A DNA stretch of 64,000 nt from Niabella aurantiaca DSM 17617. GTDB lineage: Bacteria > Bacteroidota > Bacteroidia > Chitinophagales > Chitinophagaceae. Both the position numbers and the translations under genes were made by a program. Shown here piece after piece: positions 5,068 through 29,883 of the stretch (within the stretch, counting starts at the first letter, position 1; each line of letters starts with the position of its first letter). Location: NCBI RefSeq assembly GCF_000374125.1, contig NZ_KB893625.1:592945-656944 (forward strand). The letters run 5' to 3'. The notes under the pieces were generated by a model. It was given only the letters and a program-made list of their open reading frames with translations. It did not search any database and had not been told where the DNA came from.

Positions 5068-6147
5068 ATGAGCTTATCAGGAACAATAAAAAAAAATTTG
5101 CAGGATGGTATTGCCATACCCGCGCATCCGCTGGCGCTTACGGCTGAACGGGCTTTTGATGAGGCTGCGCAACGCCGGCTGACCCGCTATTATCTGGCCA
5201 GTGGTGCCGGTGGGATCGCCATCGCGGTACATTCTACCCAGTTTGAGATCAGGGACCCCCAGATCAACTTGCTGGAAAAAGTGCTGCAGACGGCCGCCGA
5301 TGAAATTGCCCGGAGCGGCAGGGAGGATTTTGTAAAGATCGCCGGTATATGCGGGCCAACAGACCAGGCGGTTCAGGAAGCCCGGCTGGCAAAAAAATAC
5401 GGGTATCATCTCGGGCTGCTGAGCATGGGTGGATTGAATGCCCTGACCGAAGATGAGCTGATCGAGCGTACAAAAGCCGTTGCTGCCGTAATCCCGGTAT
5501 TTGGGTTCTATTTACAGCCTGCGGTGGGCGGCCGGATCCTGAGCTTCGGGTTCTGGAAAAAGTTTGCCGATATCCCGAATGTGCATGCAATCAAAATCGC
5601 CGCATTTAACCGCTATCAGACCCTGGATGCCGTGCGGGCCGTCTGTCATTCTGAAAGAATGGATGAGATCGCGCTGTACACCGGTAATGACGATAATATC
5701 ATTGCGGACCTGCTGACCACGTATCGGTTTAACATAAACGGCAGGGAGGTACAAAAGGATTTCAGGGGTGGCTTACTGGGACATTGGGCTGTGTGGACGC
5801 ACCAGGCAGCTGCATTGCTGAACGCTATTAAGGAGTATAAGGCCGGTAATAAAGGGAATGCCGATGCATGGCTTTCAAAAAACATATCGGTAACCGATAT
5901 GAATGCTGCGATCTTTGATCCGGCCCATCATTTTCACGGTTGCATCCCCGGTATTCATGAAGTGCTGCGGAGACAGGGCTTATTAAAAGGTACCTGGTGC
6001 CTGAATCCCGGTGAGGTATTGTCGCCGGGGCAGTCAGATGAAATCACCCGGGTGACCCAGGCCTACCCGGAGCTCGTTGACGACGATTTTGTGCGCACCT
6101 TTTTGCAAAATGACCAGCGTCCGGCGCATTCTAAAGAATCGCTATGA
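5068..6147 (+). CDS. DapA/NanA-family aldolase (dihydrodipicolinate synthase family)
   Basis: The 359-aa cytoplasmic protein belongs to the class I pyruvate-aldolase superfamily, which includes DapA, N-acetylneuraminate lyase and KDG aldolase. The Schiff-base lysine is probably Lys176 in HAIKIAAFN. The conserved tyrosine is probably Tyr148 in GFYLQP. The usual GTTGE substrate loop is changed to GAGGIAIAVHS (46-56). The protein is also longer than the usual ~300 aa because of a C-terminal extension. These points argue against a housekeeping lysine enzyme and for cleavage of a sugar-acid-like substrate. The stop codon overlaps the next start (ATGA at 6144-6147), indicating translational coupling. 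A sialidase-like protein lies in the same region, but neuraminate as substrate is not proven. Confidence 0.85.
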   Translation: MSLSGTIKKNLQDGIAIPAHPLALTAERAFDEAAQRRLTRYYLASGAGGIAIAVHSTQFEIRDPQINLLEKVLQTAADEIARSGREDFVKIAGICGPTDQAVQEARLAKKYGYHLGLLSMGGLNALTEDELIERTKAVAAVIPVFGFYLQPAVGGRILSFGFWKKFADIPNVHAIKIAAFNRYQTLDAVRAVCHSERMDEIALYTGNDDNIIADLLTTYRFNINGREVQKDFRGGLLGHWAVWTHQAAALLNAIKEYKAGNKGNADAWLSKNISVTDMNAAIFDPAHHFHGCIPGIHEVLRRQGLLKGTWCLNPGEVLSPGQSDEITRVTQAYPELVDDDFVRTFLQNDQRPAHSKESL

Positions 6148-7529
6148 AAAGAAGGGCGTTTATTAAAGGCACGGCTTCCTTATCATTATTGCCCGTGGTC
6201 AAACCGTTGGCAGGCCTGGCAACGCAATCCCGGAACATGAAAATTAAAATTGATCATATTGCTTCTGATTTTGAACGGCAGCCGCTGGTGCGGCCTTTCG
6301 GATTTAAGGGCGGTTACCTGACGGAACTGTGGCAGGCGGTCTCTTTGATACAAACTGCTGCAAGCGGACCAAAGATCGGGCTTGCCACGCAAAGCGTTTT
6401 ATATGGTGATCCGGCTATTTTTTCGGATCATTCGGAAAGTGCAGGAAACGCGTTGATGTATGCGTTGTCGGAAAGAGCCTTGCGGCTGGCAAAAGAAACA
6501 CCTTTTCATACGCCGGTTGATCTTTTGTCCGATATTTTACCCGAAGTTACCCGGTATGCAGCGTCTGTTACGGGCAGGGGCAGCGCCAACCTTAATTTTA
6601 TTTATAATGCCCTGGTAAGCGTAGACAATGCGGCATGGCTGGTATATGCATCAGAGAACAAGTGCCCGCATTTTGATGCCATGATCCCTGATGCTTACAA
6701 AAAACCATTGGGCCTCCGCAATCCGAGGATCGCGGTTATGTACCAGATCCCATATGGTATGCCCATGACGGACCTGGTAAACGCGGCGGAAGAGGGATAT
6801 TTTGTTTTTAAAATTAAAACGGGTATGCCCGGAGACCAGGAGCAAATGCTGCGGTCGGATATGGAGCGGCTCGATTTGATCCATCGTACCCTGAAGGATT
6901 TAAGGACCCCTCAGACAAAAGACGGCAGGCTCATTTATACGCTGGATGCAAACGGGCGGTATGGGAAAAAGGAAAGCTTACTGAAGTTTCTCGATCATGC
7001 AAAAAAAATAGGGGCTTTTGAGCAAATAAAATTGATAGAGGAGCCGTTTTGGGAATCCAATAATGAAACGGTTGGGGATGTTGGGGTGATCATAGGCGCC
7101 GATGAAAGCGTACACACAGAGGCCGATGCGATAAAAAGAATTCAGCAGGGGTATAAAGCGATCGTGCTAAAAGGGATTGCCAAAACCCTGAGTGTGAGTT
7201 TTAAAATAGCAAAGGTTGCGTATGAACATCATGTGGCCTGTATGTGCGCGGATCTGACCGTGAACCCCCTGTTGCTGGACTGGCATAAGAACCTGGCAGC
7301 GCGGCTGCAGCCGTTTCCGGGCATCGGAATGCCCATGATCGAAACCAATGGCGATATGAATTATAAGAATTGGGATCTCATGAAAACGTTCCACCCGGTA
7401 CAAAATGCATCGTGGCAGCAGGTAAAGCAGGGGGTATTTGAGTTGGACGACGACTTTTACGAGCGGAGTGGGGGCATATTCATGGGTACGGCGCATTACG
7501 AGCAGCTGTTTCACAGGAAGCAGGAATAG
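6144..7529 (+). CDS. Enolase-superfamily (mandelate racemase/muconate lactonizing type) enzyme with Tat-type leader
   Basis: This is a 461-aa enolase-superfamily member. The residues expected for proton abstraction and metal binding are visible: KIK (223-225), DAN (268-270), EE in LIEEPF (299-300), ADES (319-322) and Lys343 in VLKGIAKT. Members usually dehydrate or epimerise acid sugars, so this gene fits beside the aldolase. The N-terminus MKRRAFIKGTASLSLLP is a twin-arginine leader (RRxFIK then a hydrophobic stretch), suggesting folded export to the periplasm. That is unusual for a catabolic sugar-acid dehydratase. Its start overlaps the previous stop by 4 bp. The substrate cannot be assigned. 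Confidence 0.87.
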   Translation: MKRRAFIKGTASLSLLPVVKPLAGLATQSRNMKIKIDHIASDFERQPLVRPFGFKGGYLTELWQAVSLIQTAASGPKIGLATQSVLYGDPAIFSDHSESAGNALMYALSERALRLAKETPFHTPVDLLSDILPEVTRYAASVTGRGSANLNFIYNALVSVDNAAWLVYASENKCPHFDAMIPDAYKKPLGLRNPRIAVMYQIPYGMPMTDLVNAAEEGYFVFKIKTGMPGDQEQMLRSDMERLDLIHRTLKDLRTPQTKDGRLIYTLDANGRYGKKESLLKFLDHAKKIGAFEQIKLIEEPFWESNNETVGDVGVIIGADESVHTEADAIKRIQQGYKAIVLKGIAKTLSVSFKIAKVAYEHHVACMCADLTVNPLLLDWHKNLAARLQPFPGIGMPMIETNGDMNYKNWDLMKTFHPVQNASWQQVKQGVFELDDDFYERSGGIFMGTAHYEQLFHRKQE

Positions 7530-7592
7530 ATGCTGGCGCGGAAATGGAAGCCGGTGCAGCACGGAAGATACATAATATTAAATCTGAAGAAT

Positions 7593-8939
7593 ATGAGTAA
7601 TCACAAGGGCCGCAGGAACTTTATAAGGAATTCTGCCGTTATCGGGTTGGGGGCAACACTGAACTTTGAAAAAGTATTGCCTACCGTTTTAAAAGCTGAG
7701 GGCAAACCTGCCTTATTGGGCGGCGCTCCCCTTGTCAGCACACCCTGGCCCAAATGGCCGATGTGGAACAGGGAAACCGATGAGCCGCTTGTCCTGGAAG
7801 CCTTGCGCAGCGGGGTTTGGTCCCGTGCAAAAAAAGTGGCCTTGTTCGAAGAGAAATGGGCAGCACTGATCGGGGCCAAAAGGGCGCTGACTACCGTTAA
7901 CGGAACAAATGCGCTGATTACAGCGGTGGCACAATCGGATATCGGGGGCGGGGATGAAGTGATTTTACCACCCTATACGTTCATTGCAACGCTTACAGCC
8001 ATTCTTAATGCTGGTGCGATGCCGGTATTTGCTGACGTAGATCCGGACACATTCCTGATTGATCCGGAGGCCATAAAGAAAAAGATCACCCCCCGTACCC
8101 GGGCCATATTGCCGGTGCACATTTGCGGGTTACCTGCGGATATGGGCCCTATTATGCAGATTGCGAAACAGCATGACCTGGTAGTTATTGAAGATGCCTG
8201 CCAGGCATGGCTGGCTGAAATAAACCATAAGAAAGTGGGCACTTTCGGTCATGCCGGCTGCTTTAGTTTCCAGAACTCCAAGAACCTGCCCATCGGTGAG
8301 GGCGGGGCTATCGTAAGCGATGATGAGGTTTTTATGGACCGGTGCGTTTCCTATCATAATCTTGGGCTGCCGTATGGAACGGCCTCTGCACGCCCGGGCA
8401 GCAAGCTCCGGTTAACGGAGTACCAGGCCGCCATCGGGATGGTGCAAATGGAACGGCTTGTGCCGCAAACGGTCACAAGAAACGAAAATGCCCGTTATTT
8501 AAGACAACAGATGAACAATATAAAGGGGATCGTGCCACATATATTAAACGCCGGTGTTACACAGGCGGCCTATCATTTGTTCCCGTTCAGGTATGATCAG
8601 CGCCATTTTGCAGATCTTCCGAGAGCGCAGTTCATAAAAGCGTTACAGGCCGAGGGTATTCCGTGTTCCGGCGGATATACGCCTTTAAATGACATTAAAA
8701 ACCTGGGCAATACCTTTGAAACAAAGAATTATAAAAAGATGTACCCTTCGTCCGAATTGAGTTACGAGCGGTTTAGGGAAAATAACCAGTGCCCTAAAAA
8801 TGAAAGGCTTTGCCAGGAAGCGGTATGGTTGCCGCAAAATGTGCTGTTGGCCAATAAATCCAGCATGGATGTCATTGTTTCGGCCATTCAGAAAATTCAG
8901 AAGAATGCCGCAGCGATCCATAAAAATACATCAAAGTAA
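7593..8939 (+). CDS. DegT/DnrJ/EryC1/StrS-type PLP aminotransferase with Tat-type leader (copy 1)
   Basis: The 448-aa protein has the fold and motifs of sugar aminotransferases. They are PYTFIAT (about 127-133), EDACQAW with the PLP-ring Asp201, and SFQNSKNL with the Schiff-base Lys230. The N-terminus MSNHKGRRNFIRNSAVIGLG is a twin-arginine leader. I chose ATG 7593 over the upstream in-frame ATG 7530 because the Tat motif begins right after it. A paralogue at 28534 has the same Lys and Asp numbering and also a Tat-type leader. In nucleotide-sugar biosynthesis these enzymes are cytoplasmic. A Tat leader implies either a periplasmic PLP enzyme or a leader-like N-terminus kept from an ancestor. 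The C-terminus overlaps the convergent DeoR gene by 9 bp. Confidence 0.88.
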   Translation: MSNHKGRRNFIRNSAVIGLGATLNFEKVLPTVLKAEGKPALLGGAPLVSTPWPKWPMWNRETDEPLVLEALRSGVWSRAKKVALFEEKWAALIGAKRALTTVNGTNALITAVAQSDIGGGDEVILPPYTFIATLTAILNAGAMPVFADVDPDTFLIDPEAIKKKITPRTRAILPVHICGLPADMGPIMQIAKQHDLVVIEDACQAWLAEINHKKVGTFGHAGCFSFQNSKNLPIGEGGAIVSDDEVFMDRCVSYHNLGLPYGTASARPGSKLRLTEYQAAIGMVQMERLVPQTVTRNENARYLRQQMNNIKGIVPHILNAGVTQAAYHLFPFRYDQRHFADLPRAQFIKALQAEGIPCSGGYTPLNDIKNLGNTFETKNYKKMYPSSELSYERFRENNQCPKNERLCQEAVWLPQNVLLANKSSMDVIVSAIQKIQKNAAAIHKNTSK

Positions 8940-9680
8940 CGTGAGGTTGGTGTCCTGGTATTTTATCAGGCTGGGATCATTGGGGTCCAGCTCCGTAATC
9001 AGGTAGTTTACCTGGTTTACATCGCAGATCTTGATCGTTTGAATGGTGTTTAATTTTTCAGAAATGGTTACCACGACCGCTTTTTTGGCGGAACGTATCA
9101 GCGCCTTTTTGGCTTGCACTACTTCCCAGTCAAGGTCGGTCAGGCCTTCTTCAACCGAAAAGGCATTTGCCCCCAACAAACACAGGTCTGCTTTTATTTC
9201 TGAAAGCTGGTTGATCATTCCGGATCCTACATGCAGGTTGGCATTTTTCAGCAATCTGCCGCCAATAGTGATCACTTCTATGTTGTCAAACTCAGAGAGC
9301 GTGATGGCAATTTGCGGGCTGATGGTAAAAAAAGTAGCTTTCATGTTTTTGGGGATCATTTTGGCCAGCTCGAGTATGGTAGTGCCCCCTTCGGTCAATA
9401 CTGTTGAATTGTTCTTGATCAGCCTTAACGCTTTTTCTGCAATGATTTTCTTCGATTCCAGGGCATAGACCTCATTTTGACCGCTAAAAGGCGATACGAA
9501 TGAAGGACCAACCGCCCCGCCATGTACTTTTACCACTTTTCCCATTTCCGCTAACTCAATAATATCCCGCCGGATGGTATCATCCGATACTTTCAGCTGT
9601 ATGCTCAGGTCGGCACACAAAACCTTATTGTGCAGGTTGATCTCTTTTAATATGAATTTCTGTCGTTCGTCCTTGCGCAT
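8931..9680 (-). CDS. DeoR/GlpR-family transcriptional regulator (copy 1)
   Basis: The 249-aa protein has an N-terminal DeoR helix-turn-helix (about 1-57), with VSDDTIRRDIIELAEMG as recognition region followed by VHGGAV. The DeoR_C sugar-phosphate sensor domain follows, with LTEGGTTILELAKMIP and LTDLDWEVVQAKKALIR. Such proteins usually repress sugar catabolic operons until a phosphorylated intermediate binds. It is the only regulator inside region 1, so it is the best candidate to read the four CGCA arrays; this is inference from position. The 3' end overlaps the DegT gene by 9 bp. A possible -7 box TATATTTA lies at complement 9759-9752. No CGCA array lies upstream of it, so it may not regulate itself through that motif. 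Confidence 0.92.
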   Translation of the reverse strand: MRKDERQKFILKEINLHNKVLCADLSIQLKVSDDTIRRDIIELAEMGKVVKVHGGAVGPSFVSPFSGQNEVYALESKKIIAEKALRLIKNNSTVLTEGGTTILELAKMIPKNMKATFFTISPQIAITLSEFDNIEVITIGGRLLKNANLHVGSGMINQLSEIKADLCLLGANAFSVEEGLTDLDWEVVQAKKALIRSAKKAVVVTISEKLNTIQTIKICDVNQVNYLITELDPNDPSLIKYQDTNLTLL

Positions 9681-9935: not shown

Positions 9936-10940
9936 TTATAACGCCGGCTTTTGTAAGGGTATAATTTGTCCATTGCTCTTTTTGCTTTTGGCCGCTGCAT
10001 CCATAAACGCATAGATCTCCAGCGTTTCCGCCGCGCTGACCGGTGCGGTGCCCGTATCAAAAAATTTGATGATCTCTTTTAGCAAAGGTTCGTAGCCATC
10101 ATACCGGTCAACGTATACTGTAGCATTTTCGGCATGTACGATCCCTCCATAATCGTGCCTGCCCGCGCGCGTACCCCGGAAAACCCCGATCCGGCCGTCA
10201 TTCCAGGTGCCTACCACCACATCAGCATCTGCCGTTGAGGTTTGGCTAACATGAACACACCCGATACCCATTAAGGTGTACAGCAGCTCCACGCCGTGTA
10301 TGCCATACCAAAACAGGTCTGTGTGCGAGGCTTCAATGGTTGCCGGGCTGAAAGCGGTGGCGCCCAAAACCTTTCCATAGGTATGGGCACGCACTTTCTG
10401 TGCTTTTTCGATATACCGAAGTGAAGATGCTGAAAACATCGGGGTATTGTATTTTTTTGCCAGCTTATAGATGCTGACCACATCGTTCATTTTAGCGGCG
10501 ACCGGTTTATCAATAAACACTCTTTTTCTGCTTTTAAAGATCGCTGTGGCCTGCTCCAGGTGCAGGCTGCCGTCGTTGGTCTCCAGCATTACGACATCGC
10601 AATTCTTCAGCAGCTCATCAACGGAGCCGGCAATGGTTACTCCGTTTTCTTTTGCCTCTTTGGTGTACTGGTCGATGCGGCTATAGCTGCTTGCTATTTT
10701 TTTGCTGCCATAGGGATAGGCCGTTGTTACATAATAACCATTGTATGCAGCCGTATGCTTTGCTTTGTTTAATGCTTTAATAAATTCTGAGGCATGAGAA
10801 GTGTCTAAACCGATGATGCCTACTCTGCGCAGATCCGTTTGGTGATTCAACATCGTTGTAAAGCCAGATCCGAATGCTGCATACAAACCTGCAAGACCTG
10901 TGGTTTTGATAAAATTTCTCCGGGTTGGGTTTTTGATCAT
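9936..10940 (-). CDS. Gfo/Idh/MocA-family oxidoreductase with Tat-type leader
   Basis: The 334-aa protein is an NAD(P)-dependent sugar oxidoreductase-type protein. The Rossmann segment VGIIGLDTSHA (40-50) is followed by the family's DKP (144-146, usually EKP). A C-terminal alpha/beta substrate domain follows, with the HGVELLY-type segment. The N-terminus MIKNPTRRNFIKTTGLAGLY is a twin-arginine leader, so it may be exported with its cofactor bound, as described for other periplasmic Gfo/Idh/MocA enzymes. It is divergent from SusC-1, and the shared intergenic region contains CGCA array copy 3. It may act with the DegT and enolase-type enzymes on an oxidised amino sugar. Substrate unknown. Confidence 0.86.
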   Translation of the reverse strand: MIKNPTRRNFIKTTGLAGLYAAFGSGFTTMLNHQTDLRRVGIIGLDTSHASEFIKALNKAKHTAAYNGYYVTTAYPYGSKKIASSYSRIDQYTKEAKENGVTIAGSVDELLKNCDVVMLETNDGSLHLEQATAIFKSRKRVFIDKPVAAKMNDVVSIYKLAKKYNTPMFSASSLRYIEKAQKVRAHTYGKVLGATAFSPATIEASHTDLFWYGIHGVELLYTLMGIGCVHVSQTSTADADVVVGTWNDGRIGVFRGTRAGRHDYGGIVHAENATVYVDRYDGYEPLLKEIIKFFDTGTAPVSAAETLEIYAFMDAAAKSKKSNGQIIPLQKPAL

Positions 10941-11427: not shown

Positions 11428-14400
11428 ATGCGTATGCTGTTTATTCGATCGCTTTTCTGCGCCGGCGTATGGATGCTGGGGATTTCCGTACAAGGACAGG
11501 AGATCAGCGGCGTGGTGCGCGCTAAAACGGACAACCGGCCATTGGAAGGGGTTACCGTTCAGATCGCCGGAAAGCCGGGAACCGTAACCACCACAAATGC
11601 GGATGGCCGCTATCAGCTGAGCGGTGGCGGTCCTGCTGATTCGGTGGCGTTTTCGCACGTGGGTTTTGAACGGGCTGCCATTGTAATAGCCGGGAAACCC
11701 AATATTGATGTGCTGCTGACGCCCGTTAATGCATCCCTGGACCAGGTGGTGGTCATCGGTTACGGATCGGTGCGCAAACTGGATCTCACGGGCTCGGTAG
11801 GAACCGTAAATGTGGAAGATATGAAGAAAGCACCTGTACCTTCTTTTGCGCAGGCGCTGGCGGGAAGGGTGGCGGGCGTGCAGGTGAACAGCACCGATGG
11901 GCAGCCCGGCGGAGGAATGAATATCATGATCCGCGGGGCAGGCTCATTAACGCAGAGTACAACACCGTTGTATGTAGTGGACGGTTTTCCTATTGAAGAC
12001 CTGGACCCCAATACACTGAATATGGATGATATTGCCTCCGTTTCCATCCTGAAGGACGCATCATCGACTTCCATTTATGGTTCAAGAGGCGCAAACGGGG
12101 TAGTGCTGATCCAAACGCGAAGGGGGAGGCCGGGAAAGCCCGAGGTTGCCATTGGCGGAACAATGGGGTTCCAGCTGAAACCACCGTTGATCCCTGTAAT
12201 GAGTCCCTATGAATTTGTAAAATACCAAATGGAGCTGAATCCCAATTCCTTTAATACACCGGCCTATACCGCACTTGGAAAAACGCTGGACGATTATAAG
12301 AACGTGCCGGGCATCAACTGGCAGGACCAGGTGCTAAAGACCGGCAGCTACCGGAACTACAACCTGAGTGTGCGTGGCGGTTCGGAACAAACGAGATATT
12401 CGGTGTCCGGATCCGTATTTAACCAGGAGGGGGTCATCATCAATACCGGAATGGACCGGTACACCGGAAGACTTTCATTGGATCAGACCCTTTCGGATAA
12501 GTTTAAGATGGGCGCAAATGCGGCCATCACGCAAACTGATGTTTACGGTCAGCAGATCCGCTCTATTTATGGCGGCGGCAATGCCACTTCGCCCGCGCTG
12601 ATCCGGGCATGGATGTACCGGCCGGTATCAGCCATCGAAGGAGAGGATCTGCTGACGGAGGACGCCGATCAGCAAGCGGTCAATGCCAGCGATTTCCGGA
12701 TCAACCCGGTTACGGATCTGGAAAACCAGTACCAGCATACGATCCGTAACCAACTGCAATCGGATGCCTATGTCAGCTTTGCAATTACCCCCAACCTGGT
12801 TTTGAAATCCACTGCAGGCCTTATGCAGTCAAATGTGCGCCGGGAGCAGTTCTATAATTCCAAAACGGCACAGGGAAGCCCGCTGAATCCTTCAAACAAA
12901 AATGGTGTTTGGGGAAGCATGAATGATAACAATTCCAATAGCTTTTTTAATGAGAATACGCTGAACTACAAGACCACCATCGGACAGGATCATTCAATAA
13001 ACGGCATGCTGCTGTTTGGCGTAAACCGGTACAAGACGATGTACTCTTCCTTTACCGGCATACAGCTGCCCAACGAGGCAAAGCGCATGGACGGACTGGA
13101 TGAATCCTCAGGGGGCACGTTTACATCGCCCAGCATTTATAACACGGTCAATACAATGGTGTCGTACGCAGCACGGGTGGATTATAATTTCAGGTCAAAG
13201 TACCTGCTCACGGTCAATTTCAGGGCGGATGGCTCTTCCAAATTTTTGCAGCCCTGGGGCTATTTTCCCGGGGGCGCCATCGCCTGGAACATGGGCCAGG
13301 AAGGTTTTTTCCGTGAAGCGCTGCCATTCATCACCAACTCCAAGCTGCGGGCAAGCTATGGTCAGAACGGGAATAACCGTGTCGGCGATTTTGATGCATA
13401 TGCAAAATTGTCGCTGAACAATACCGGGCAGGGATATTCTTTTAGTAACCAGGCGCCCACGCCGGCCGCTTATTTATCCACTCTGGGAAACCCCCAGCTG
13501 CAATGGGAAAAAACAGAGCAGATCGATATCGGTTATGAGATCGGGGTACTGGACAACCGCATCGGGCTGGAGGTGGACTGGTACCGGCGCACGGCTTCCA
13601 ACCTGCTGCTGAATACGGATCTGCCGCAGAGCTCCGGGTTCGGATCGGCGCAGGTCAACATCGGCAGCCTCCGCAATACCGGATGGGAGTTCACGCTGCA
13701 TACCACCAATATAAAAACAGAGGATCTTGACTGGACCAGCAGCTTTAATATCAGCTTCAATAAAAACAAGATCCTGTCGCTTGCCTATGGCCAATCGGCG
13801 CTGAGCAGGGTGCCGGCGTATCTTTCCCAGTTTGGACAGCCCCTGTTCCTTTCAGAACTGGGCAAACCGGTGGGAATGATGATCGGGTATATCTGGGAGG
13901 GAAATTACCAGTATGCTGATTTTGACAATCCGGCTCCGGGAGTTTACGTTCTGAAAAAGGAACTGTCTACCAACGGCACGGCACGCAATGTGGTGCAGCC
14001 GGGCGATATTAAACTGCGGGATCTGAACGGCGATGGCACCGTCAATACTTCGGATATGACCATCATCGGGCGGGGACAGCCGGTGCACATCGGCGGGTTT
14101 TCCAATAATTTAAATTATAAGGGTTTTTCCCTGAATATCTTTTTTCAATGGTCGTATGGCAACGATGTTTACAATGCCAACCGCCTATTGCTGGAAGGGA
14201 ACAGTAATGGTTTTGCCAATATTAACCAATATGCCAGTTATGTTAACCGCTGGTCTCCGGACAATCCGACCAACGAAAATTACAGGACCAGAGGGCAGGG
14301 ATTCATCGGTTATTTTTCGTCGAAGAATGTTGAGGACGGATCTTACCTGAGGCTGAAAACCGTATCGCTCTCCTACGCCCTTCCTTCCGCCCTCGTGCGG

Positions 14401-14580: not shown

Positions 14581-14599
14581 TCAACTTAAAAATATAGGG

Positions 14600-16450: not shown

Positions 16451-16477
16451 CTCTTCCTGGTTTCAAATACAGCAGTT

Positions 16478-17560: not shown

Positions 17561-17619
17561 GAGGAGGAAAAGACCCGGTAATCTAAGTGATTCCGCAGCC
17601 CCTGAAAGGCCCTGGGAAA

Positions 17620-17900: not shown

Positions 17901-18162
17901 TCGGTTATAAAACCGCTAAAAAACTGCAAAGATGACGATTGCCAATTGCTCGCTGAAATTTTCGGGGATTTTAACGTGTTCCCTAAAAATGATCCTTTTC
18001 ATTCTATTGATCACCGGTTTTTACGAGGAGCATGTGCACCGAACCTGAATGTTTCTTTTACGCAAGTAATTTTTTCTAAAAAACGGGCCTTTATGTGTTT
18101 GATGATTCAGAAAAACACCGGGCATCATAAAACGGATAAAGGACAAAATAATTAAAAGTAAA

Positions 18163-21100
18163 ATGAAAGAGCATAAAAATTACGCCAACTACCAAAACAA
18201 TTGTCTGGCTTTTTTAAGGGCTTTATTGGGTTCCTTGTTTTTCTTATTGTTATTGAACCCGGGATACGGATTTGCCGCAAGCACCGTGATGGGGTATTAC
18301 CAGAATGACAGGTCCATCACGGGACGGGTTGTTGATGAAACGGGAGTGGGCATTATCGGGGCCAGCGTGGTGATAAAGGGCACCTCAACAGGCACCAATA
18401 CCGACATGGCGGGTAAGTTCACGCTTACTCTTCCCAAAGACAGTGCGGTGCTCGTGGTTACCTATGTAGGCTATGAGGACCGGGAGGTGCCGGTATCAGT
18501 GACAACACTGGAAAATTTCGAGATCACTTTAAAAGCGGTTACCAAAAGTGAGGACGATGTGGTGGTGGTGGCCTTTGGAAAGCAAAAAAAGGAAAGCGTT
18601 GTAAGCGCCATTACTACCATAGAACCTTCCAGTTTAAAAGTACCGTCGAGCAACCTTACCACGGCGTTTGCCGGAAGACTGGCGGGGGTGATCGCTTACC
18701 AGCGATCGGGTGAGCCGGGCCTGGATAATGCAGAATTCTTTATCCGGGGTATTACCTCTTTTAGTTCGTCCGGAAAAAAAGACCCCCTGATCCTTATTGA
18801 CGGTATTGAAATGGAGACCAACGACCTGGCCCGGTTGAACGTGGATGATATTGCATCTTTCTCCATTATGAAAGATGCCAATGCTGCCGCCTTGTATGGC
18901 GCACGCGGGGCGAATGGCGTGATCCTGGTAACTACCAAAGAAGGTAAAGTGGATAAGCTGTCGTTCAGTTTGCGGGCGGAGCAGTCCAATTCCTATAACT
19001 CGCAATTGGTAAAGCTGGCTGACCCCATTACGTATATGAAATTGCATAACGAAGCGGTGAGGACCCGCGATGCAATGATAGACGTGCCTTATAGCCAGTC
19101 GAAGATCCGGGAAACAGAAGAAGGCATCAACCCGCTTTTTAATCCTTCTGTGGATTGGTATGACTATCTGATCAAGAACAAAGCCGTGAACCGGCGGGTG
19201 AATATGAATATGACGGGTGGCGGCCAAACAGTGCTGTATTACCTGGCGGCCAATTACCAGAATGACCAGGGCATCATCAAAGAAAGCCCGGAGAACCTCA
19301 TCAAAAACAATATCAATATTGACAGGTTTCAATTACGCTCGAATGTTACCATTAAGTTTACGCCCACTACCACAGCCTGGGTAAGAGCTTATGGCTCGTT
19401 TGATGACCTGAGCGGCCCAACAAATGGCGGTGCGGCAGTATTTCATGCATCCCGGAATGCCTCGCCCGTGAGCTTCCTGCCTTACTATCCGGCAGATTCG
19501 GCCAATGAATTTACCAAGCACGTGCTGTTTGGAAACAATGTGGAAATGAATTTAGTGAATCCTGCAGCGCTCCTTGCCAGTAATTTCCTGGAGCAAAAGC
19601 AATCCATGATGCTGCTGCAGCTGGAAATGGAGCACAAGTTCCAGGGTGCTTTAAAAGGGCTGACAGCCAAGGGGATTTATAATGTAACGCGGAAGGCGCT
19701 TTACAGGCAGTCCCGGGGCTATGTTCCGTTCTATTATCTGCCGGCCACCACCCTCGACGGATCGTACCAGCTGATGGCGCTGAACCCCGATGCCGGCACG
19801 GAATACCTGAACTACAGTCCCGGTGCCCGGACAGTGGGGGCTGTCCAGTACGGGGAAATGCGCCTGGGATATAATAAAACCCTTAACGATGTGCACGATC
19901 TGAACGTAACCCTTGTAGAAACCATCCGGTCGGCCAGCCAGGTGGTTCCCATCTATCTTACCGATTATCTGCAGCTTCAGGCTTCGCTGCCGCAACGTAA
20001 TTTATCCTCTGCCGGCCGTCTGGCTTATGGCTATGATTCGCGGTATTTCCTGGAGTTCAACTTCGGCTATAACGGGAGTGAGCGGTTTGCCAGGAAGAAC
20101 CGGTGGGGCTTTTTTCCTTCTGTAGGCGCGGGATGGCTGATCAGTAACGAAGCATTTATGCAAAATGCAAAAGAAGTGATCAATACCCTGAAGATCAGCG
20201 CTACTTATGGTAAAGTAGGCAACGACCAGATCGGAGGCACCGCGACTCCTGCAGATGACCTGATCGACAACGTGGTGGACCGCTTCTTCTACCTGCCGCA
20301 GGTGGACATGAACGGAGAGGGGTATTGGTTTGGATACGACCGGGGCTATCGTTCCGGTATCACGATCGGCAGGTATGGTAATGACCTGATCACCTGGGAA
20401 GTTGCTAAAAAAACGAATATAAGGCTGGAGCTGGGATTGTTCAGGGATTTCACCCTGATCACCGATTTTTTTGGAGAAACCCGGGAAAATATCCTGCAAC
20501 GGCGGGCGGATATACCTACCACCATGGGCCTGCGTGTGATACCCTGGGCCAATGTAGGGATATCGCAGGGAAAAGGATTTGAGACCGAGCTAAAATATGA
20601 TAAAACTTTTGGGCCGGACTTCTCCCTGCAGGTAAACGGCACATTTACCTATACATCCAGCAGGTTCAAAAAATATGAAGAGCCCGACTTCAGCGATGTG
20701 CCCTGGAGGTCACGTGTAGGCTTAAAGATTGCCCAGCCCATAGGATTGATAGCAGAAAGGCTGTTCATTGACGATGAAGATGTAAGAAATTCGCCCCGCC
20801 AATTGTTTGGTGAGTACACCGCCGGCGATATCAAGTACAAGGATATCAACCGGGATGGCCAGATCGATAATAACGATATGGTTCCTATCGGCTATCCGAC
20901 CGTTCCCGAAATTATATATGGCGGCGGATTCACAGCAATATATAAATCTTTCGATCTGTCACTGTTCTTCCAGGGTTCGGGCCGCTCCTCCTTCTTTATC
21001 AGCCCGGCCGATATCACCCCGTTTTTGAACAGGGGCCAAAGAGCTTTGCTGCAATATATTGCCGATGATCACTGGTCTGAAAATAACCGGAACCTCGACG

Positions 21101-21387
21101 CATTCTGGCCCCGCCTGTCGGAATATACCATTGATAACAATAACCAAATCAGCACGCACTGGCTTCGCAACGGGTCGTTCGTAAGGCTAAAATCGGGAGA
21201 GTTTGGATACACATTGCCTCAACGGTTAGCTCAAAGAGCACGCATGAAAAAGTTCCGCATATATGTGAATGGTACGAACCTCTTGTTATGGTCTAAATTC
21301 AAAATGTGGGATCCGGAAATGGCAGGAAAGGGATTGGGGTACCCGGTTCAGCGGGTGATCAACTTTGGTCTGGATATTAATTTTTAA
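18163..21387 (+). CDS. SusC-type TonB-dependent outer-membrane receptor (SusC-2)
   Basis: The 1074-aa SusC-family transporter is quite diverged from SusC-1. A long N-terminal signal region has its hydrophobic core at about 17-40 (FLRALLGSLFFLLLLNPGYGFA). A carboxypeptidase-regulatory-like domain follows (ITGRVVDETGVGIIGASVVI). The plug contains VVVVAFGKQKKESVVSAI, FFIRGITSF, PLILIDGIEME and SIMKDANAAALYGARGANGVILVTT, and the C-terminal barrel ends in INF. The variant VVAFGKQKKESVV replaces the common VVVGYGTQKKxxLTGA. The SusD gene follows with no gap. The substrate is probably a different or larger fragment of the glycan handled by SusC-1. Confidence 0.96.
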   Translation: MKEHKNYANYQNNCLAFLRALLGSLFFLLLLNPGYGFAASTVMGYYQNDRSITGRVVDETGVGIIGASVVIKGTSTGTNTDMAGKFTLTLPKDSAVLVVTYVGYEDREVPVSVTTLENFEITLKAVTKSEDDVVVVAFGKQKKESVVSAITTIEPSSLKVPSSNLTTAFAGRLAGVIAYQRSGEPGLDNAEFFIRGITSFSSSGKKDPLILIDGIEMETNDLARLNVDDIASFSIMKDANAAALYGARGANGVILVTTKEGKVDKLSFSLRAEQSNSYNSQLVKLADPITYMKLHNEAVRTRDAMIDVPYSQSKIRETEEGINPLFNPSVDWYDYLIKNKAVNRRVNMNMTGGGQTVLYYLAANYQNDQGIIKESPENLIKNNINIDRFQLRSNVTIKFTPTTTAWVRAYGSFDDLSGPTNGGAAVFHASRNASPVSFLPYYPADSANEFTKHVLFGNNVEMNLVNPAALLASNFLEQKQSMMLLQLEMEHKFQGALKGLTAKGIYNVTRKALYRQSRGYVPFYYLPATTLDGSYQLMALNPDAGTEYLNYSPGARTVGAVQYGEMRLGYNKTLNDVHDLNVTLVETIRSASQVVPIYLTDYLQLQASLPQRNLSSAGRLAYGYDSRYFLEFNFGYNGSERFARKNRWGFFPSVGAGWLISNEAFMQNAKEVINTLKISATYGKVGNDQIGGTATPADDLIDNVVDRFFYLPQVDMNGEGYWFGYDRGYRSGITIGRYGNDLITWEVAKKTNIRLELGLFRDFTLITDFFGETRENILQRRADIPTTMGLRVIPWANVGISQGKGFETELKYDKTFGPDFSLQVNGTFTYTSSRFKKYEEPDFSDVPWRSRVGLKIAQPIGLIAERLFIDDEDVRNSPRQLFGEYTAGDIKYKDINRDGQIDNNDMVPIGYPTVPEIIYGGGFTAIYKSFDLSLFFQGSGRSSFFISPADITPFLNRGQRALLQYIADDHWSENNRNLDAFWPRLSEYTIDNNNQISTHWLRNGSFVRLKSGEFGYTLPQRLAQRARMKKFRIYVNGTNLLLWSKFKMWDPEMAGKGLGYPVQRVINFGLDINF

Positions 21388-23487
21388 ATGAACGCTAAAT
21401 TAAAATCACTTAAAATGAAGTCTGCTATTTATAAATTGTTATCGACCTTCAGCCATACTGCCGGAGCGGAGAAAGAGCAACTGGCTTTGTGTAAAAAATC
21501 GCGCCCTTATAGAAAGACGCTGCCCGCTATCCTGGGATTGTTTTTTATGCTGTTTGGAACCGCAGGTTGTAACAAGTTCCTGGATGTGGTGCCCAACGAT
21601 ACGCCTACGCTGGAGCATGCTTTTTCCAACCGCTCGGTAATGGAAAAATTTTTAAGGACCTGCTATTCCTGGCTGCCGGATCCTACTGACCCGTTCTATT
21701 ATCCTACGTATTTTACCAGCAAGGACGAGTTTGATAACAAAGGTGAAAGCCGGGCGGGGAACTCGCTGGCCGGCCAGATCGCCCGTGGGCTGCAGAACAG
21801 CAATGTCCCGCTCCAGGATTATTGGTCGGGCTATGCCGACAGCAGGGAAAGCGCCGTACCCAGCTTGTATAAAGCCATTCGCGATTGCAATATCTTCCTG
21901 GAAAATGCTCATATACCAAGAGATATTACTGAAGAAGAGCGTACCCGGTGGATATCGGAAGTAAAGTTTTTAAAAGCCTATTATCATTTCTTCTTACTGC
22001 AGTTATACGGTCCCATTGTATTGGTGAAGGAGAACATTCCTGTTTCTGCCACACCGGAAGAAACCTGGGTGTACCGCGAGCCGGTGGATGAATGCGTGGA
22101 TTACATTGCAGGATTGATCGATGAAGCGATGCCCGGGCTGCCGCCCGTATTGCCCGACCCCGCTACTGAACAGGGCAGGATCTCACAGGTAATAGCGCTG
22201 GGTGTAAAGGCAAAATTGCTGGCCACCGCCGCCAGCCCGTTATTCAACGGCAATACGGATTATACCGGCTGGACCGATAACCGGGGAAAACAGCTGGTGT
22301 CCACCACCTACGACCCCAGTAAATGGGAAAGAGCTGCCGCCGCTATTAAAGAGGCGATCGATGCCGCTGAAAGCAACGGGTTCCGGCTGTACGAATTCAA
22401 TAAGCTTACGGGTGGCGCCAAAACCTTTGCCATGAACGACAGTATGGTGCAGCTGATGACCATCCGGAAGGCGATCACCGAAGACCTGGAGCGGAACCCC
22501 GGCACTATCTGGGCCACCCAGGAGCAGTTTGCTGATCTGAAAGGAAACTCGTCAAGATTGGGCCTGAACTCTCTCGGCAATATGCTAAAGCTGCTTTTTC
22601 CTCAAATGTATTCACAGGACCAGTCCTACCAGGCGCAGTATTTCGCGGCTTCCTGGCACATGGCAGAATTATTTTACTCCAATAACGGGGTGCCTATCGA
22701 TCAGGACAAGTTTTTTGATTATGCCAACCGGTATAAGCCACGCCGGGCCATTGCCAGTGATCATCACACCAGCTATATACCCACCGGTGAGATTACAGCC
22801 TCGATGCACTTTTTCCGCGAGCCCCGGTTTTATGCTGACCTGGGTTTCGACAGGGGGTATTTTGAAATAGAATCCACGACAGATAATGGCGGCGCTTCGT
22901 TTGGGGTGTACCTTCGCCAACGATCGGGCGAGACAGGCCTTAACGGCTATGTGCCCAAAAAGATCATTGCTTTTGAAACTGTTAGCAGCAAGGGTGCAAC
23001 CGGTAATCCATATAGGCCGTATAACTACCAGTTTCCCCTGCTTCGCCTGTCTGATCTGTACCTGCTGTACGCCGAAGCGCTGAATGAAGTAAAAGGAGCG
23101 CCGGATGGCGAAGTGTATGCATGGATCGATAAGGTACGGATCAATGCGGGGTTAAACGGCGTTGTGCAATCCTGGCAAACCGCAGCCCTGAACCCCACTG
23201 CACCGTCTAACAAGAACGAGATGCGTAAGATCATACAGCGGGAACGCCTGATAGAGCTGGCATTTGAAGGACAGCGTTTTTGGGACCTTCGCCGCTGGAA
23301 AACCGCACTTCCGTACTGGAGCCTGCCGCCCACGTTGTGGACCACTACCGGTAAGACCCCCGATGAGTATTATATACCGATGATAACCGGTCCGGCCCGT
23401 ACCGTTTCTTTCAGGGATTATTTATATCCGATCGCACAGGCTGATATCCGGGCTAATGTCAATTTAGTGCAGACCTACGGATGGTGA
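21388..23487 (+). CDS. SusD/RagB-type surface lipoprotein (SusD-2)
   Basis: The 699-aa SusD-family protein begins immediately after the SusC-2 stop. The N-terminal stretch before the lipobox is unusually long: LFGTAGC lies at about residues 53-59. An internal ATG at 21415 (MKSAIYKLL) shortens it only slightly. Family marks are CNKFLDVVPNDTPTLEHAF, WISEVKFLKAYYHFFLLQLYGPIVL, LRLSDLYLLYAEALNEV and RERLIELAFEGQRFWDLRRWK. It is larger than most SusD proteins, with a long central region (about 330-500). It should bind glycan at the cell surface together with SusC-2. Confidence 0.95.
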   Translation: MNAKLKSLKMKSAIYKLLSTFSHTAGAEKEQLALCKKSRPYRKTLPAILGLFFMLFGTAGCNKFLDVVPNDTPTLEHAFSNRSVMEKFLRTCYSWLPDPTDPFYYPTYFTSKDEFDNKGESRAGNSLAGQIARGLQNSNVPLQDYWSGYADSRESAVPSLYKAIRDCNIFLENAHIPRDITEEERTRWISEVKFLKAYYHFFLLQLYGPIVLVKENIPVSATPEETWVYREPVDECVDYIAGLIDEAMPGLPPVLPDPATEQGRISQVIALGVKAKLLATAASPLFNGNTDYTGWTDNRGKQLVSTTYDPSKWERAAAAIKEAIDAAESNGFRLYEFNKLTGGAKTFAMNDSMVQLMTIRKAITEDLERNPGTIWATQEQFADLKGNSSRLGLNSLGNMLKLLFPQMYSQDQSYQAQYFAASWHMAELFYSNNGVPIDQDKFFDYANRYKPRRAIASDHHTSYIPTGEITASMHFFREPRFYADLGFDRGYFEIESTTDNGGASFGVYLRQRSGETGLNGYVPKKIIAFETVSSKGATGNPYRPYNYQFPLLRLSDLYLLYAEALNEVKGAPDGEVYAWIDKVRINAGLNGVVQSWQTAALNPTAPSNKNEMRKIIQRERLIELAFEGQRFWDLRRWKTALPYWSLPPTLWTTTGKTPDEYYIPMITGPARTVSFRDYLYPIAQADIRANVNLVQTYGW

Positions 23488-26420: not shown

Positions 26421-28349
26421 ATGGCCATTACAAAATTCTTTCTGATTACAGCAGCCTTTTTAGCACCCGTTTTTTTGTCCGCGCAGCCGCACCAAAAAGA
26501 GAAGGAGCCGGCGAGTGCCGTTTCCTTGTTCCGGGATCATGGCGTTGCTTCCGCCTACAGTACCACCCGGGGAACCGTGGCCACCGTTGACGGAAACGGC
26601 CGGAACATTGTGCTATCCTGGCTTTTTGATGTAAGAGGCGGGTATGCGTTGTTGATGCTGGATGCAGCAACCGGCAAGAGCGAAGTTTTTCCCATGCCCT
26701 TCTCCCCGGGCGGCGATTGCCCCTACGCTTCGATCCTGTCTTCCCGGGGAAGATTCTATACACTTTTTAACGGGAATTTTGCTGAGTTCGATCCCGGGAA
26801 ACGGGCCTTTACCTTCCACCATAAAACGACCCGGCAGATGGCCATGGGAATGACTGAAGATGACAAGGGGAGAATATGGGCGGTTACCTATCCCAACAGT
26901 GGCGTGGTATCTTTTGATCCCGCAACAGGAGTATTTACGGATTATGGGTACCTGAATAAGGAGAACTGGCAGCAGTACCAGCGCTACATGGCTGCCGATG
27001 ACCAGGGCTGGATCTATTTTGCACTGGGCAATACCAATAGTCAGCTGATCGCTTTTAACCCCGGTACCCGGCAAGTCAATAAGCTCTTAAAACCCGATGA
27101 GAGAAAAAGAGGCTCCGCATACCTGTACCGGAACAAGGATGGAAAAGTATATGGGCAGGCCCTTGCTGATAAGAACGGTACCTGGTACCAGCTGTATAAC
27201 GGCGTTATAAAAACGATCGGCACAGGGCATCAGTCAAACCCCAAGCCCATCATTACCGGCTCGCAGGCTTTACGGCATCTGTCATTTCCTGATGGCAGCA
27301 AGATCATCGGGTTGGATCTGATCGATAAGATACTGACGACAGAAGACGCTCATAATGGGAAGAAAAATGCCGTACATTTCGACTATCCATCGGAGGGATC
27401 CTGGGTAATGGGGGTGGGGGCCTCCCCAGACCACCGTTCGATCATCGGGGGCGGGTCTTTCCCCATGCGGCAGTTTAACTATGCCGTTGCTGATGATCAA
27501 TGGAGCACAAGGGCGGCATTGGGACAATACAATGCGCTGACAACAAGCGGTCAGTATGTTTTTTTTGGATCCTATCCCAGCGGGAATCTTGTTATGTGGG
27601 ATACTAAAAAAGAGTTCAAGGCAAATGGCGCGAAGGCAAAAGACAGCAATCCACGCGTATTGTATGAATGCACCCCTGTGATACATCGTCCGCACCGGGT
27701 ATTGGTGCATACCGACGGTAAAACGGTTATTTTAGGCGGAACACCGGAGTATGGCTATACGGGCGGGGGATTATTGTTTTATGATATTTCTACCAATAAG
27801 CAGGTGCTGCTGACCGACGAGGATATCGAGAAGGACCAGTCAACCATGAGCCTCACCAATATTGCCAAAGGAAAAGTGCTGGGCGGAACCACCGTGGCTC
27901 CGGGAACCGGCGGGGAGCGGAAAGCGAACCTGGCACTCCTGTATATCATTGACCCTGTTTCAAAAAAAGTAGAATGGAAAGAGCCCGTAATCCCCGGTGT
28001 TCAATCATATACAGACCTGACAACCCGGAAAGACGGAAAGGTTTACGGGATTGCTGACCGGAAAATATTCTTCCTGTTTGACCCTGTGACAAAAAAGATC
28101 GTTTACCAAAAAGACCTCTTTAAAGAGTATGGCTACGCCGTTGGGGAACAATCGCCCCGCGTTTTTATAAACGGAAAGCAGGATGACCTTTATATCCTTT
28201 TTGAACATGCGATCGCGAAAGTAGATCATAAATCCGCAGGCATCCGGTTACTGGCAAAAACACCTCAGGCGATAAGAGCCGGCGGATGCTTCCTAAATGA
28301 CCGGCTTTATTTTGTTTGTGGTTCTCATTTGTTTAGTTACGGATTGTAG
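26421..28349 (+). CDS. Secreted beta-propeller protein of unknown function
   Basis: The 642-aa protein has a signal peptide ending in FLSAQ. The mature part consists of repeated blade-like units with D-x-x-G-x-I/V-Y motifs: DDKGRIWAVTYPNSGVVSFDPATG, DDQGWIYFALGNTNSQLIAFNPGT, NKDGKVYGQALADKNGTWY and RKDGKVYGIADRKIFFLFDPVT. The pattern resembles lactonase/SMP-30 or NHL-type propellers. It lies between the SusC-2 operon and a DegT-type gene on the same strand. A cleavage or binding role in the periplasm is possible, but no catalytic site can be recognised. A second propeller protein, without signal peptide, is at 30729. Confidence 0.75.
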   Translation: MAITKFFLITAAFLAPVFLSAQPHQKEKEPASAVSLFRDHGVASAYSTTRGTVATVDGNGRNIVLSWLFDVRGGYALLMLDAATGKSEVFPMPFSPGGDCPYASILSSRGRFYTLFNGNFAEFDPGKRAFTFHHKTTRQMAMGMTEDDKGRIWAVTYPNSGVVSFDPATGVFTDYGYLNKENWQQYQRYMAADDQGWIYFALGNTNSQLIAFNPGTRQVNKLLKPDERKRGSAYLYRNKDGKVYGQALADKNGTWYQLYNGVIKTIGTGHQSNPKPIITGSQALRHLSFPDGSKIIGLDLIDKILTTEDAHNGKKNAVHFDYPSEGSWVMGVGASPDHRSIIGGGSFPMRQFNYAVADDQWSTRAALGQYNALTTSGQYVFFGSYPSGNLVMWDTKKEFKANGAKAKDSNPRVLYECTPVIHRPHRVLVHTDGKTVILGGTPEYGYTGGGLLFYDISTNKQVLLTDEDIEKDQSTMSLTNIAKGKVLGGTTVAPGTGGERKANLALLYIIDPVSKKVEWKEPVIPGVQSYTDLTTRKDGKVYGIADRKIFFLFDPVTKKIVYQKDLFKEYGYAVGEQSPRVFINGKQDDLYILFEHAIAKVDHKSAGIRLLAKTPQAIRAGGCFLNDRLYFVCGSHLFSYGL

Positions 28350-28450: not shown

Positions 28451-28533
28451 TATTCTGAATAATGATGTTGAACGGGGATCCGTTGCAGCCGCTTGTCTTT
28501 AATCTTTTCTATCGAATCTAAAAAATAACTATC

Positions 28534-29883
28534 ATGAGCAGTGCTTTCAACCGCAGGAAATTTATCAGCAATGTAGCAATCGTTGGCACAGGGTTGGCTA
28601 TAGGCGCGCCCCATATCGTATCCGCCGGTACCGCAAAGACCCGGCCCGCCATCCTGGGCGGCCCCAAGGCGCACTCGGGCGCATTCCCGTCATGGCCGGT
28701 GGAGAATACCATCGAAGAAAAAGGATTGACCGAGGTCCTACAGAGTAAGAAATGGGGCCGGCTGGATGGCAGCAGGATGGCCAGGTTTGAAGCGGAATAC
28801 AGTAAGCTGTTTGGAGTGAAGCACAGCCTGGGCGTTTCCAGCGGAACCAGCGCCCTTACCACTATCTTAGGGGCATTGGACATCGGCCCGGGCGATGAAG
28901 TGGTCCTGCCTGTGTACACCTTTGTGGCTACCTATAATGTAGTGGTGCTCAATTATGCCTTACCGGTACTTGTAGATACCGATATTGAAACCTTTCAGAT
29001 AGATGCCGCTAAAGCAAAGGCTGCGATTACCGCGCAAACCAAAGTGATCATGCCGGTGCATATTGGCGGGTCGCCGGTAGATCTTGACGCGTTTGTGGCA
29101 ATGGGCAAAGAGCACAATATACCGGTGGTTGAAGATGCCTGCCAGGCCCACCTGGCGGAGTGGAAGGGCATAAAAGTCGGGAATTATGGACTGGCCGGCG
29201 CTTTTAGCTTCCAGTCGTCCAAGAACCTGAATTGCGCAGAAGGCGGAGCCGTTACTACCAACGATGATGATTTTATCACCCGCTGTTATACCTTTCATAA
29301 CCAGGGGCAGGGAGGAAGGTCTACCTCTTTTTCTACAGGCGTTGGTACCCGCGGCACCAACCTCCGGCTGACCGAGTTCCAGGGAAGCCTGCTATTATCC
29401 CAGATGACACGGGTAGCGGAGCAAAGTAACCGCCGCTGGGAGAACGCACAATATCTTTCACGGTTACTGAAAGAAATACCGGGCATTACCCCTGCAAAAT
29501 TATATCCCGGCACCACAAGGAGTGCCTATCATTTATATATGTTCCGGTATGATAAGCATCACTTTGCCGGCTTAAGTCGTGAGAAATTCCTGCATGCCCT
29601 GGGCGCAGAAGGGGTGCCTAATTCGGCAGGGTATGGTCAAATGAACAAAAGCGATTATGTAACAGCTCTGGCAACCAATAAGCACTACCTGAAGATATAT
29701 GGTGAAAAGGAAATGAAGAACTGGCTGGAGCGGAACCAATGTCCTCAGAACGACATGCTCACTTCCGGGCAGTCGGTATGGCTGTTTCAGAATATGTTGC
29801 TGGGAACAAAAAGTGAGATGGAACAGATCGCCGAAGCGATCCGTAAAATACAGCAATATGCAGTAGAGATCGCAAAGAAATAG
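28534..29883 (+). CDS. DegT/DnrJ/EryC1/StrS-type PLP aminotransferase with Tat-type leader (copy 2)
   Basis: The 449-aa paralogue of the enzyme at 7593 has PVYTFVATYN, EDACQAHLAEW (Asp201) and SFQSSKNL (Schiff-base Lys230) at the same residue numbers. The N-terminus MSSAFNRRKFISNVAIVGTGLAIG is a twin-arginine leader, and a possible cleavage site is near PHIVSAG. The two proteins are clearly homologous but diverged, so they may act on different substrates or positions. Transaminases of this family add or remove an amino group on keto sugars using glutamate-type donors; how a donor would be supplied in the periplasm is unclear. It stands between a secreted propeller and an oppositely oriented SGNH esterase. 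Confidence 0.88.
   Translation: MSSAFNRRKFISNVAIVGTGLAIGAPHIVSAGTAKTRPAILGGPKAHSGAFPSWPVENTIEEKGLTEVLQSKKWGRLDGSRMARFEAEYSKLFGVKHSLGVSSGTSALTTILGALDIGPGDEVVLPVYTFVATYNVVVLNYALPVLVDTDIETFQIDAAKAKAAITAQTKVIMPVHIGGSPVDLDAFVAMGKEHNIPVVEDACQAHLAEWKGIKVGNYGLAGAFSFQSSKNLNCAEGGAVTTNDDDFITRCYTFHNQGQGGRSTSFSTGVGTRGTNLRLTEFQGSLLLSQMTRVAEQSNRRWENAQYLSRLLKEIPGITPAKLYPGTTRSAYHLYMFRYDKHHFAGLSREKFLHALGAEGVPNSAGYGQMNKSDYVTALATNKHYLKIYGEKEMKNWLERNQCPQNDMLTSGQSVWLFQNMLLGTKSEMEQIAEAIRKIQQYAVEIAKK

Follow-up and report, generated by a model that had tools for sequence, protein, structure and literature searches.

AHBA synthase, the 2-deoxy-scyllo-inosose aminotransferases BtrR/RbmB and Fic25 act on non-nucleotide substrates in antibiotic biosynthesis, and to our knowledge none of them carries a twin-arginine translocation (Tat) leader. 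The DegT-type aminotransferases GenS2 and KanS2 are paired with the aminoglycoside 3''-dehydrogenases GenD2 and KanD2 in antibiotic biosynthesis inside the cell, and we know of no ceramidase-like or propeller partner for either pair. The kanosamine pathway likewise applies a Gfo/Idh protein (NtdC) and a DegT protein (NtdA) to a non-nucleotide sugar; it is cytoplasmic and biosynthetic and uses sugar phosphates. Zymomonas glucose-fructose oxidoreductase (GFOR) and the GH109 enzymes are Tat-exported proteins of the Gfo/Idh fold that leave the cytoplasm with bound NAD(P). In vitro and with 2-oxoglutarate, GenS2 and GenD2 together are reported to remove the 3''-amino group from kanamycin B and tobramycin, yielding the 3''-hydroxy forms, while GenS2 alone achieved only low-level removal (excerpt of PMC4340712). 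Among pyridoxal 5'-phosphate (PLP) enzymes, the periplasmic transaminase PtaA and PvdN are described as leaving the cytoplasm folded via Tat with bound cofactor; both act on pyoverdine side chains and are active in the periplasm, and PvdN with a mutated active-site Lys stays in the membrane (excerpt of PMC6206403). Here we describe a locus of Niabella aurantiaca DSM 17617 in which DegT aminotransferases themselves carry Tat leaders. The window, by which we mean the whole stretch of 64,000 nt (GCF_000374125.1, contig NZ_KB893625.1, positions 592,945-656,944, forward strand), was analyzed together with the neighboring DNA upstream of it (labelled L002; L-numbers denote loci and G-numbers genomes).

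Two DegT/DnrJ/EryC1/StrS aminotransferases are encoded on the plus strand of the window: DegT1 at 7593..8939 (ATG at 7593, in a longer frame from 7530), with the Tat leader GRRNFIRN, and DegT2 at 28534..29883, with the Tat leader NRRKFISN. A third Tat-DegT, DegT3, lies 1.7 kb outside the window on its upstream side, next to a ceramidase-like protein and three Tat-amidohydrolases, while the leader is absent from the genome's two other strong DegT matches. With 318.4 and 297.9 bits, the window copies exceed the curated PF01041 cut-off of 19.8 bits, in agreement with the family call of an earlier sequence-only reading of this DNA, and the AlphaFold model of DegT1 has a mean pLDDT (predicted local distance difference test) of 88.8. 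That reading had singled out four genes beginning with RRxFI and a hydrophobic stretch, namely the two DegTs, an enolase-superfamily gene (6144..7529, plus strand, leader MKRRAFIKG) and a gene for a Gfo/Idh/MocA oxidoreductase (9936..10940, minus strand, leader TRRNFIKT). All four open reading frames were found, and each encodes an N-terminal twin-Arg motif with a hydrophobic stretch, in the enolase only if one charged residue is allowed. The further claim that all four keep their active-site residues stands for both DegTs and for the enolase motifs; it fails for the Gfo/Idh protein, in which GLDTSH replaces the NAD-binding GxGxxG.

GTDB genomes were scanned with DegT1, DegT2 and DegT3, and the best 80 of 563 confirmed loci were kept as the basis of all counts per 80 given below. 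Our leader script recognized a Tat leader on 75 of the 80 main DegTs. Four of the five failures show a leader by eye (L038 and L045 have the twin Arg without Phe, L069 is just under the hydrophobicity limit, and in L049 the leader lies behind a too-early start), and the fifth, L055, is cut by a contig end. Across an alignment of 99 DegTs, R7 and R8 are kept in all 93 rows with letters at these positions, and the Schiff-base Lys K230 (in SFQNSKN) and the PLP-binding Asp D201 are present in all 99 rows, those of the window copies among them (DegT1 numbering; DegT2 has the same motifs). A branch with a Shimodaira-Hasegawa-like approximate likelihood ratio (SH-aLRT) support of 89 in a quick, unrooted maximum-likelihood tree parts 92 rows with the Tat trait from four non-Tat DegTs. 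These 92 rows derive from Bacteroidota, Balneolota, Planctomycetota, Verrucomicrobiota, Acidobacteriota, KSB1 and one bin titled Arcobacter, and DegT1, DegT2 and DegT3 sit in different subgroups among them. Judged by sequence, DegT with a predicted export leader is a conserved family, and its export signal is conserved and old. One relative (G426:C6:119521-120879) was reported with one in-frame TAG, and intact copies exist in other genomes.

The nearest solved enzymes by sequence and fold are AHBA synthase, the BtrR/RbmB 2-deoxy-scyllo-inosose aminotransferases, an enzyme named glutamine-scyllo-inositol transaminase, and Fic25, with AHBA synthase, BtrR/RbmB and Fic25 at 29-31% identity in the DegT1 fold alignments. 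The fold ranking of DegT1 places AHBA synthase, the cyclitol-type enzymes and Fic25 above nucleotide-sugar enzymes; for DegT2, an ArnB-type enzyme follows close behind the nearest matches by sequence, and NtdA is a sequence match of the window DegTs. This likeness, a resemblance rather than a test, fits a location without nucleotide sugars. The GenD2/GenS2 and KanD2/KanS2 pairs resemble the DegT systems in combining a dehydrogenase with a PLP aminotransferase on a glycoside and not on a nucleotide sugar, and GenD2/GenS2 are reported to run in reverse as a deamination too (excerpt of PMC4340712). PtaA and PvdN resemble Tat-DegT in Tat leader and, as predicted for DegT, in bound PLP, and would differ from it in substrate. 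The statement of the sequence-only reading that no pathway of this composition had been described was therefore too strong, given GenD2/GenS2 on glycosides (PMC4340712, in part) and Tat-exported PLP transaminases (PMC6206403, in part). A limited literature search showed no exported DegT family among the matches listed; Tat-exported PLP transaminases as such, and pairs of Gfo and DegT proteins on glycosides, are already known.

At least one close same-strand neighbor accompanies DegT in 59 of the 80 loci. From gene neighborhoods and genome profiles, its firmest partners are a ceramidase-like protein (PF04734) and a putative beta-propeller. By cluster counts, the former shares the DegT operon in 24/80 loci, the latter in 15/80 and either of them in 27/80, and in 18 of 72 DegT is followed directly by the ceramidase-like gene. 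The window has a putative propeller-like gene at 30729..32081 (plus strand) without a Pfam match, whose product is 49-60% identical to the conserved Tat-DegT neighbor; the propeller fold is our own reading. A natural fusion at L004:18680-21340 physically joins the two partners, a ceramidase-like part and a propeller of the window-30729 type. Among 296 Bacteroidota genomes, DegT (E<=1e-90), the ceramidase-like protein (E<=1e-40) and the propeller (E<=1e-40) each occur in 5, and these are the same 5, N. aurantiaca included. Under independence of genomes, an assumption that does not hold, the chance of identical 5-genome sets would be 5e-11. The window Gfo (E<=1e-30) is present in 9 of the 296, with all 5 DegT genomes among them. 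For the DegT and Gfo profiles a few top candidates per genome were scored, and the sameness of the 296 genomes across the four profiles was read from genome labels.

Further clusters that share the DegT operon are Gfo/Idh-fold (12/80), Amidohydro_2 (7/80), GH109-type (3/80) and MurQ-like (3/80). A Pfam survey of operon partners, from which DegT, ceramidase-like and propeller genes had been removed, covered 155 of 182 selected proteins (the 27 left out were mostly short genes and DUF7133 genes of L014, L016 and L017) and returned 20 Gfo/Idh, 11 Amidohydro_2 and 5 3-keto-disaccharide hydrolase matches. In support of the sequence-only reading, Gfo/Idh proteins are frequent operon partners of Tat-DegT (20/155); the firmest partners, the ceramidase-like protein and the propeller, were not on its list. 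Family labels in the neighbor counts are blastp clusters of which one or a few members each were checked against Pfam, so that distant family members escape these counts. Longest-frame gene calling initially missed 9/80 main DegTs; these were recovered later, and their neighbor rows are less reliable.

The expected amino-sugar or glycan setting holds: DegT neighbors include GH20, GH109, MurQ-like, BadF-type kinase, GluP/NagP-type major facilitator superfamily (MFS) and SusC/D genes. In several other loci, members of the DegT2 clade have a MurQ-like gene and a gene for a 640-aa ceramidase-like protein next to them. One run in G290 reads leaderless enolase-type gene (other than the Tat-enolase), EamA, dihydrodipicolinate synthase (DHDPS), short-chain dehydrogenase/reductase, GH20, a 361-aa protein, GH109, Gfo, DegT, ceramidase and propeller, and similar runs with MR_MLE genes occur in L022 and L014. 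Muramic acid was considered as the substrate on account of the MurQ-like and GluP/NagP-type genes and was not adopted: MurQ-like genes are found in only 3/80 operons, and the N. aurantiaca copy scores 309.6 against a subfamily cut-off of 168 while staying, with 264.9, under the TIGR00274 equivalog cut-off of 302.

On balance, we favor the explanation that an old DegT family folds and binds PLP in the cytoplasm, leaves via Tat and swaps amine and ketone on a free or glycosidic sugar or cyclitol, most likely for nitrogen removal during glycan use. The leader, active site and their conservation point to export of folded, PLP-loaded protein, and the nearest structures and the location suggest that the sugar or cyclitol on which DegT would make this swap outside the cytoplasm is not nucleotide-linked. 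Hexosaminidases might release an N-acyl amino sugar, from which the ceramidase-like amidase could free the amine. DegT would then pass the freed amine to a keto acid, nitrogen removal being the likeliest direction in glycan-use operons. The keto product might be processed by exported amidohydrolases or Gfo-type proteins, or in the present locus by the Tat-enolase, and could then be taken up by MFS or EamA carriers.

Several points weigh against this explanation. Three distant DegTs outside the 92-row group also have leaders, and therefore the Tat trait may not mark one event; moreover, the 80 loci were picked by similarity to a Tat-bearing query. DegT has no operon partner in 21/80 loci, and at 53/80 neither the ceramidase-like protein nor the propeller is in the operon. 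Each of the 5 genomes with DegT, ceramidase-like protein and propeller carries 16-24 3-keto-disaccharide hydrolase matches (16 in N. aurantiaca, none of them inside the window), and a common lifestyle may therefore account for some of the co-occurrence. The scheme does not account for the keto acceptor in the periplasm, a PF04734 match alone does not show that this partner would act on sugars, and export, activity and substrate of the DegTs are predictions. We are more skeptical of a wider version, in which amino-sugar nitrogen removal outside the cytoplasm would be widespread from Bacteroidota to Planctomycetota, Verrucomicrobiota and Acidobacteriota, with the ceramidase-like protein as amino-sugar N-deacylase, Tat-DegT recycled by a periplasmic keto acid, and a cofactor-less Gfo-fold protein and an amidohydrolase acting on the keto sugar. 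For the sequence-only reading, the observation is confirmed and the interpretation partly supported, with partners that differ from those proposed.

Alternatively, in a glycan degrader that makes use of Tat, each of the four proteins could be a Tat substrate in its own right, adjacent to the others by chance and not joined with them in one pathway. We lean against this, while taking it as a serious possibility. The Tat-enolase is rare, occurring in 3/295 class genomes including N. aurantiaca, and of the two remaining genomes one has it close to DegT; the closed pathway of enolase, DegT and Gfo/Idh that had been envisaged was accordingly rejected as a general rule and kept for G144-type loci. 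In G107 its companions are a SusC-like gene and two Tat proteins, one AP-endonuclease-like and one Gfo/Idh, and the 20 kb examined around it contain no DegT. At the threshold used for clustering, no relatives of the enolase, DHDPS-like and epimerase genes turned up around other DegTs, and of 12 other loci with the Gfo, 9 have a further Gfo/Idh as its neighbor and 2 have DegT. Against chance adjacency stands G144, in which a single run unites the Tat-enolase, relatives of DegT1 and DegT3, two Tat-amidohydrolases, a heparinase-like gene and a DeoR gene; the forward run of the window and the reverse run upstream are therefore likely one pathway. The presence of the otherwise uncommon Gfo in every DegT genome argues in the same direction.

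The enolase is a divergent, probable member of its superfamily and shows the motifs KIK 223, DANGRYG 268, EEPFW 299, ADESVH 319 and LKGIAKT 342, most of them kept in G107 and G144. A G144 relative (a fragment, 63% identical) passes MR_MLE_C PF13378 with 39.3 against 29.4 bits. The window protein itself has no Pfam match at E 1 and NCBIfam matches of 15-21 bits, far below the cut-offs, and the G107 relative has no PF13378 match. The alignment with 3s5s is weak (E 0.042), and the E 0.12 obtained by hhalign with leaderless MR_MLE enolases lends no support on its own.

It is also conceivable, if doubtful, that the system runs in the opposite direction: a Gfo/Idh-type dehydrogenase would oxidize a glycoside outside the cytoplasm, and DegT would aminate the resulting keto sugar, thereby making or masking a surface glycan or a secreted amino glycoside. 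The GenD2/GenS2 pair is reported to work in this direction in antibiotic biosynthesis (excerpt of PMC4340712). The fold matches to the window Gfo include KanD2 and GenD2 along with inositol dehydrogenases (TM about 0.7) and GFOR, and several of the Gfo/Idh proteins that share DegT operons elsewhere have both a Tat leader and the glycine motif. On the other hand, the neighbors are largely hydrolases and SusC/D proteins, typical of degradation, and amination would need an amino donor outside the cell. The window Gfo speaks against this direction as well. The sequence-only reading took it for a possible NAD-loaded oxidoreductase, and Gfo/Idh/MocA membership is supported by fold and by PF01408 (44.8 against a cut-off of 24 bits), but the NAD glycine motif GxGxxG is missing in 19/19 sequences, the window Gfo and 18 relatives. 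G[L/C]DTSH takes its place in 17/19 and GLS[P/E]HS in 2/19, while our script found the Lys of the EKP-type motif (DKP in the window copy) in 17/19. The window protein thus differs from KanD2 and GenD2, which use NAD(P) according to their PDB titles, and from Zymomonas GFOR and GH109 in having no glycine motif to hold a cofactor.

The leaders of the Gfo relatives bear on the same question. Tat leaders are found in the window, L020 and L022, and the Tat script accepts most of the relatives in other genomes, while the leaders in L029 and L065 look Sec-like by inspection. A Sec-exported protein leaves unfolded and is therefore unlikely to carry NAD along; with the glycine motif missing throughout, oxidation by an NAD-loaded window Gfo is unlikely, and this candidate role was rejected. 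A pair of the GenD2/GenS2 type, with an NAD-binding Gfo and DegT in one operon, is not seen at the locus: the motif-less Gfo is encoded on the opposite strand and separated from DegT1 by the DeoR gene. The limited search for exported Gfo glycoside enzymes in the literature listed one paper, on sialic acid. A second copy of the window Gfo (G000:C7:90578-91555, L124; 52% identical) lies in the same genome between two Tat Gfo/Idh genes. Beside the Gfo in L065, L071 and L029 is a PF16490 Gfo-fold family with PGHFH-like letters, without glycine motif and without Tat leader; these neighbors give the impression of a Gfo-fold branch that has abandoned NAD.

Improbable, in our view, is a third alternative, that the leaders do not export and the proteins remain in the cytoplasm or on the inner membrane face. 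DegT1 scores 15.2 with TIGR01409, under the cut-off of 16.7, and by inspection has no clear cleavage site; the enolase and DegT3 are not listed, while the Gfo (23.1) and DegT2 (18.7) pass. Genome-wide, this model gave 50 matches at E 10, of which 34 exceed the cut-off, and the genome has one TatC (204.3 bits). What speaks for export is that the twin Arg never changes in the DegT alignment while much of the remaining leader varies, and that Gfo relatives bear either Tat or Sec-type leaders, as expected if export itself matters. Tat leaders are locally enriched. With no charge in the hydrophobic window, 7/26 locus genes carry one against 4/276 in the 400 kb background (p 4e-6); tolerating one charge there lets the enolase in and gives 8/26 and 6/276 (p 2e-6). 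The same rule was applied to genes of at least 150 aa on both sides, the locus being L002 from 8200 on plus window 1-30000; this stretch was picked after it had been seen, and window 1-30000 alone gives 4/18.

ColD/E1 dehydratases have a His at the position of the Schiff-base Lys. A dehydratase of this type, dependent on pyridoxamine 5'-phosphate, or another PLP reaction in place of transamination, is very improbable for DegT because that Lys is invariably kept, even though ColD-type dehydratases are among the DegT sequence matches and PvdN is described as an exported PLP enzyme with unusual chemistry (excerpt of PMC6206403).

Returning to the gene layout, the plus-strand order toward DegT1 is an NRAMP-type transporter (2622..3848), an NAD-epimerase-like protein (3988..5055, weak NCBIfam matches only), a DHDPS-family protein (5068..6147, its stop overlapping the enolase start), the Tat-enolase and DegT1, with gaps of 139, 12, -4 and 63 bp. 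Operon membership of the transporter is unsure, and no export leader was seen in the epimerase-like and DHDPS-family proteins. A DeoR-type regulator (8931..9680, minus strand) is convergent with DegT1 and overlaps its end; a 73% identical relative adjoins the DegT1 relative in G144. A GH20 hexosaminidase (538..2433, minus strand) heads a reverse run that extends into L002 with a MurQ-like gene (its start at 3..506, minus strand; whole gene L002:17560-18450), a GluP/NagP-type MFS carrier and DegT3. The same run then continues with a Tat-amidohydrolase and a CBM6-bearing ceramidase-like protein, followed by two amidohydrolase pairs, each of one Tat and one leaderless member, and a heparinase II/III-like protein. 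Two TonB-receptor/SusD pairs (11428..23487, plus strand; 11428 with 14600 and 18163 with 21388, gene 16478-17560 between them) are situated between the DegT1 and DegT2 regions. DegT2 follows, after a gap of 184 bp, a large protein without Pfam family (26421..28349, plus strand) that by eye resembles the large protein L001:9260-11161; downstream of DegT2 come a reverse GDSL-type gene and the propeller-like gene.

Farther along, window 36228-45260 holds a separate sugar operon with a fucose-isomerase-type gene and an FGGY kinase, and with what we take to be transketolase-like halves and sugar ABC transporter-like genes. Past the reverse amidohydrolase run, about 13-21 kb before the window begins, lie TatD-like, UbiA-like, 3-dehydroquinate-synthase-type cyclase and phosphodiesterase-like genes (L002:654-4421 and L001:15548-16891), presumably an ebo cluster. 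The proximity of this cyclase to cyclitol-type aminotransferases may be a chance neighborhood.

If the wider version of nitrogen removal by exported DegT is true, it would represent a second amino-sugar route beside cytoplasmic catabolism by kinase and deaminase. Should DegT work outside the cytoplasm, sugar transamination would not be tied to nucleotide sugars or cytoplasmic amino donors, and glycan degraders of several phyla would hold an uncharted amino-sugar step. Our analysis also offers a testable role for ceramidase-like (PF04734) and unnamed propeller-like genes, within a small defined set of DegT, ceramidase-like protein and propeller.

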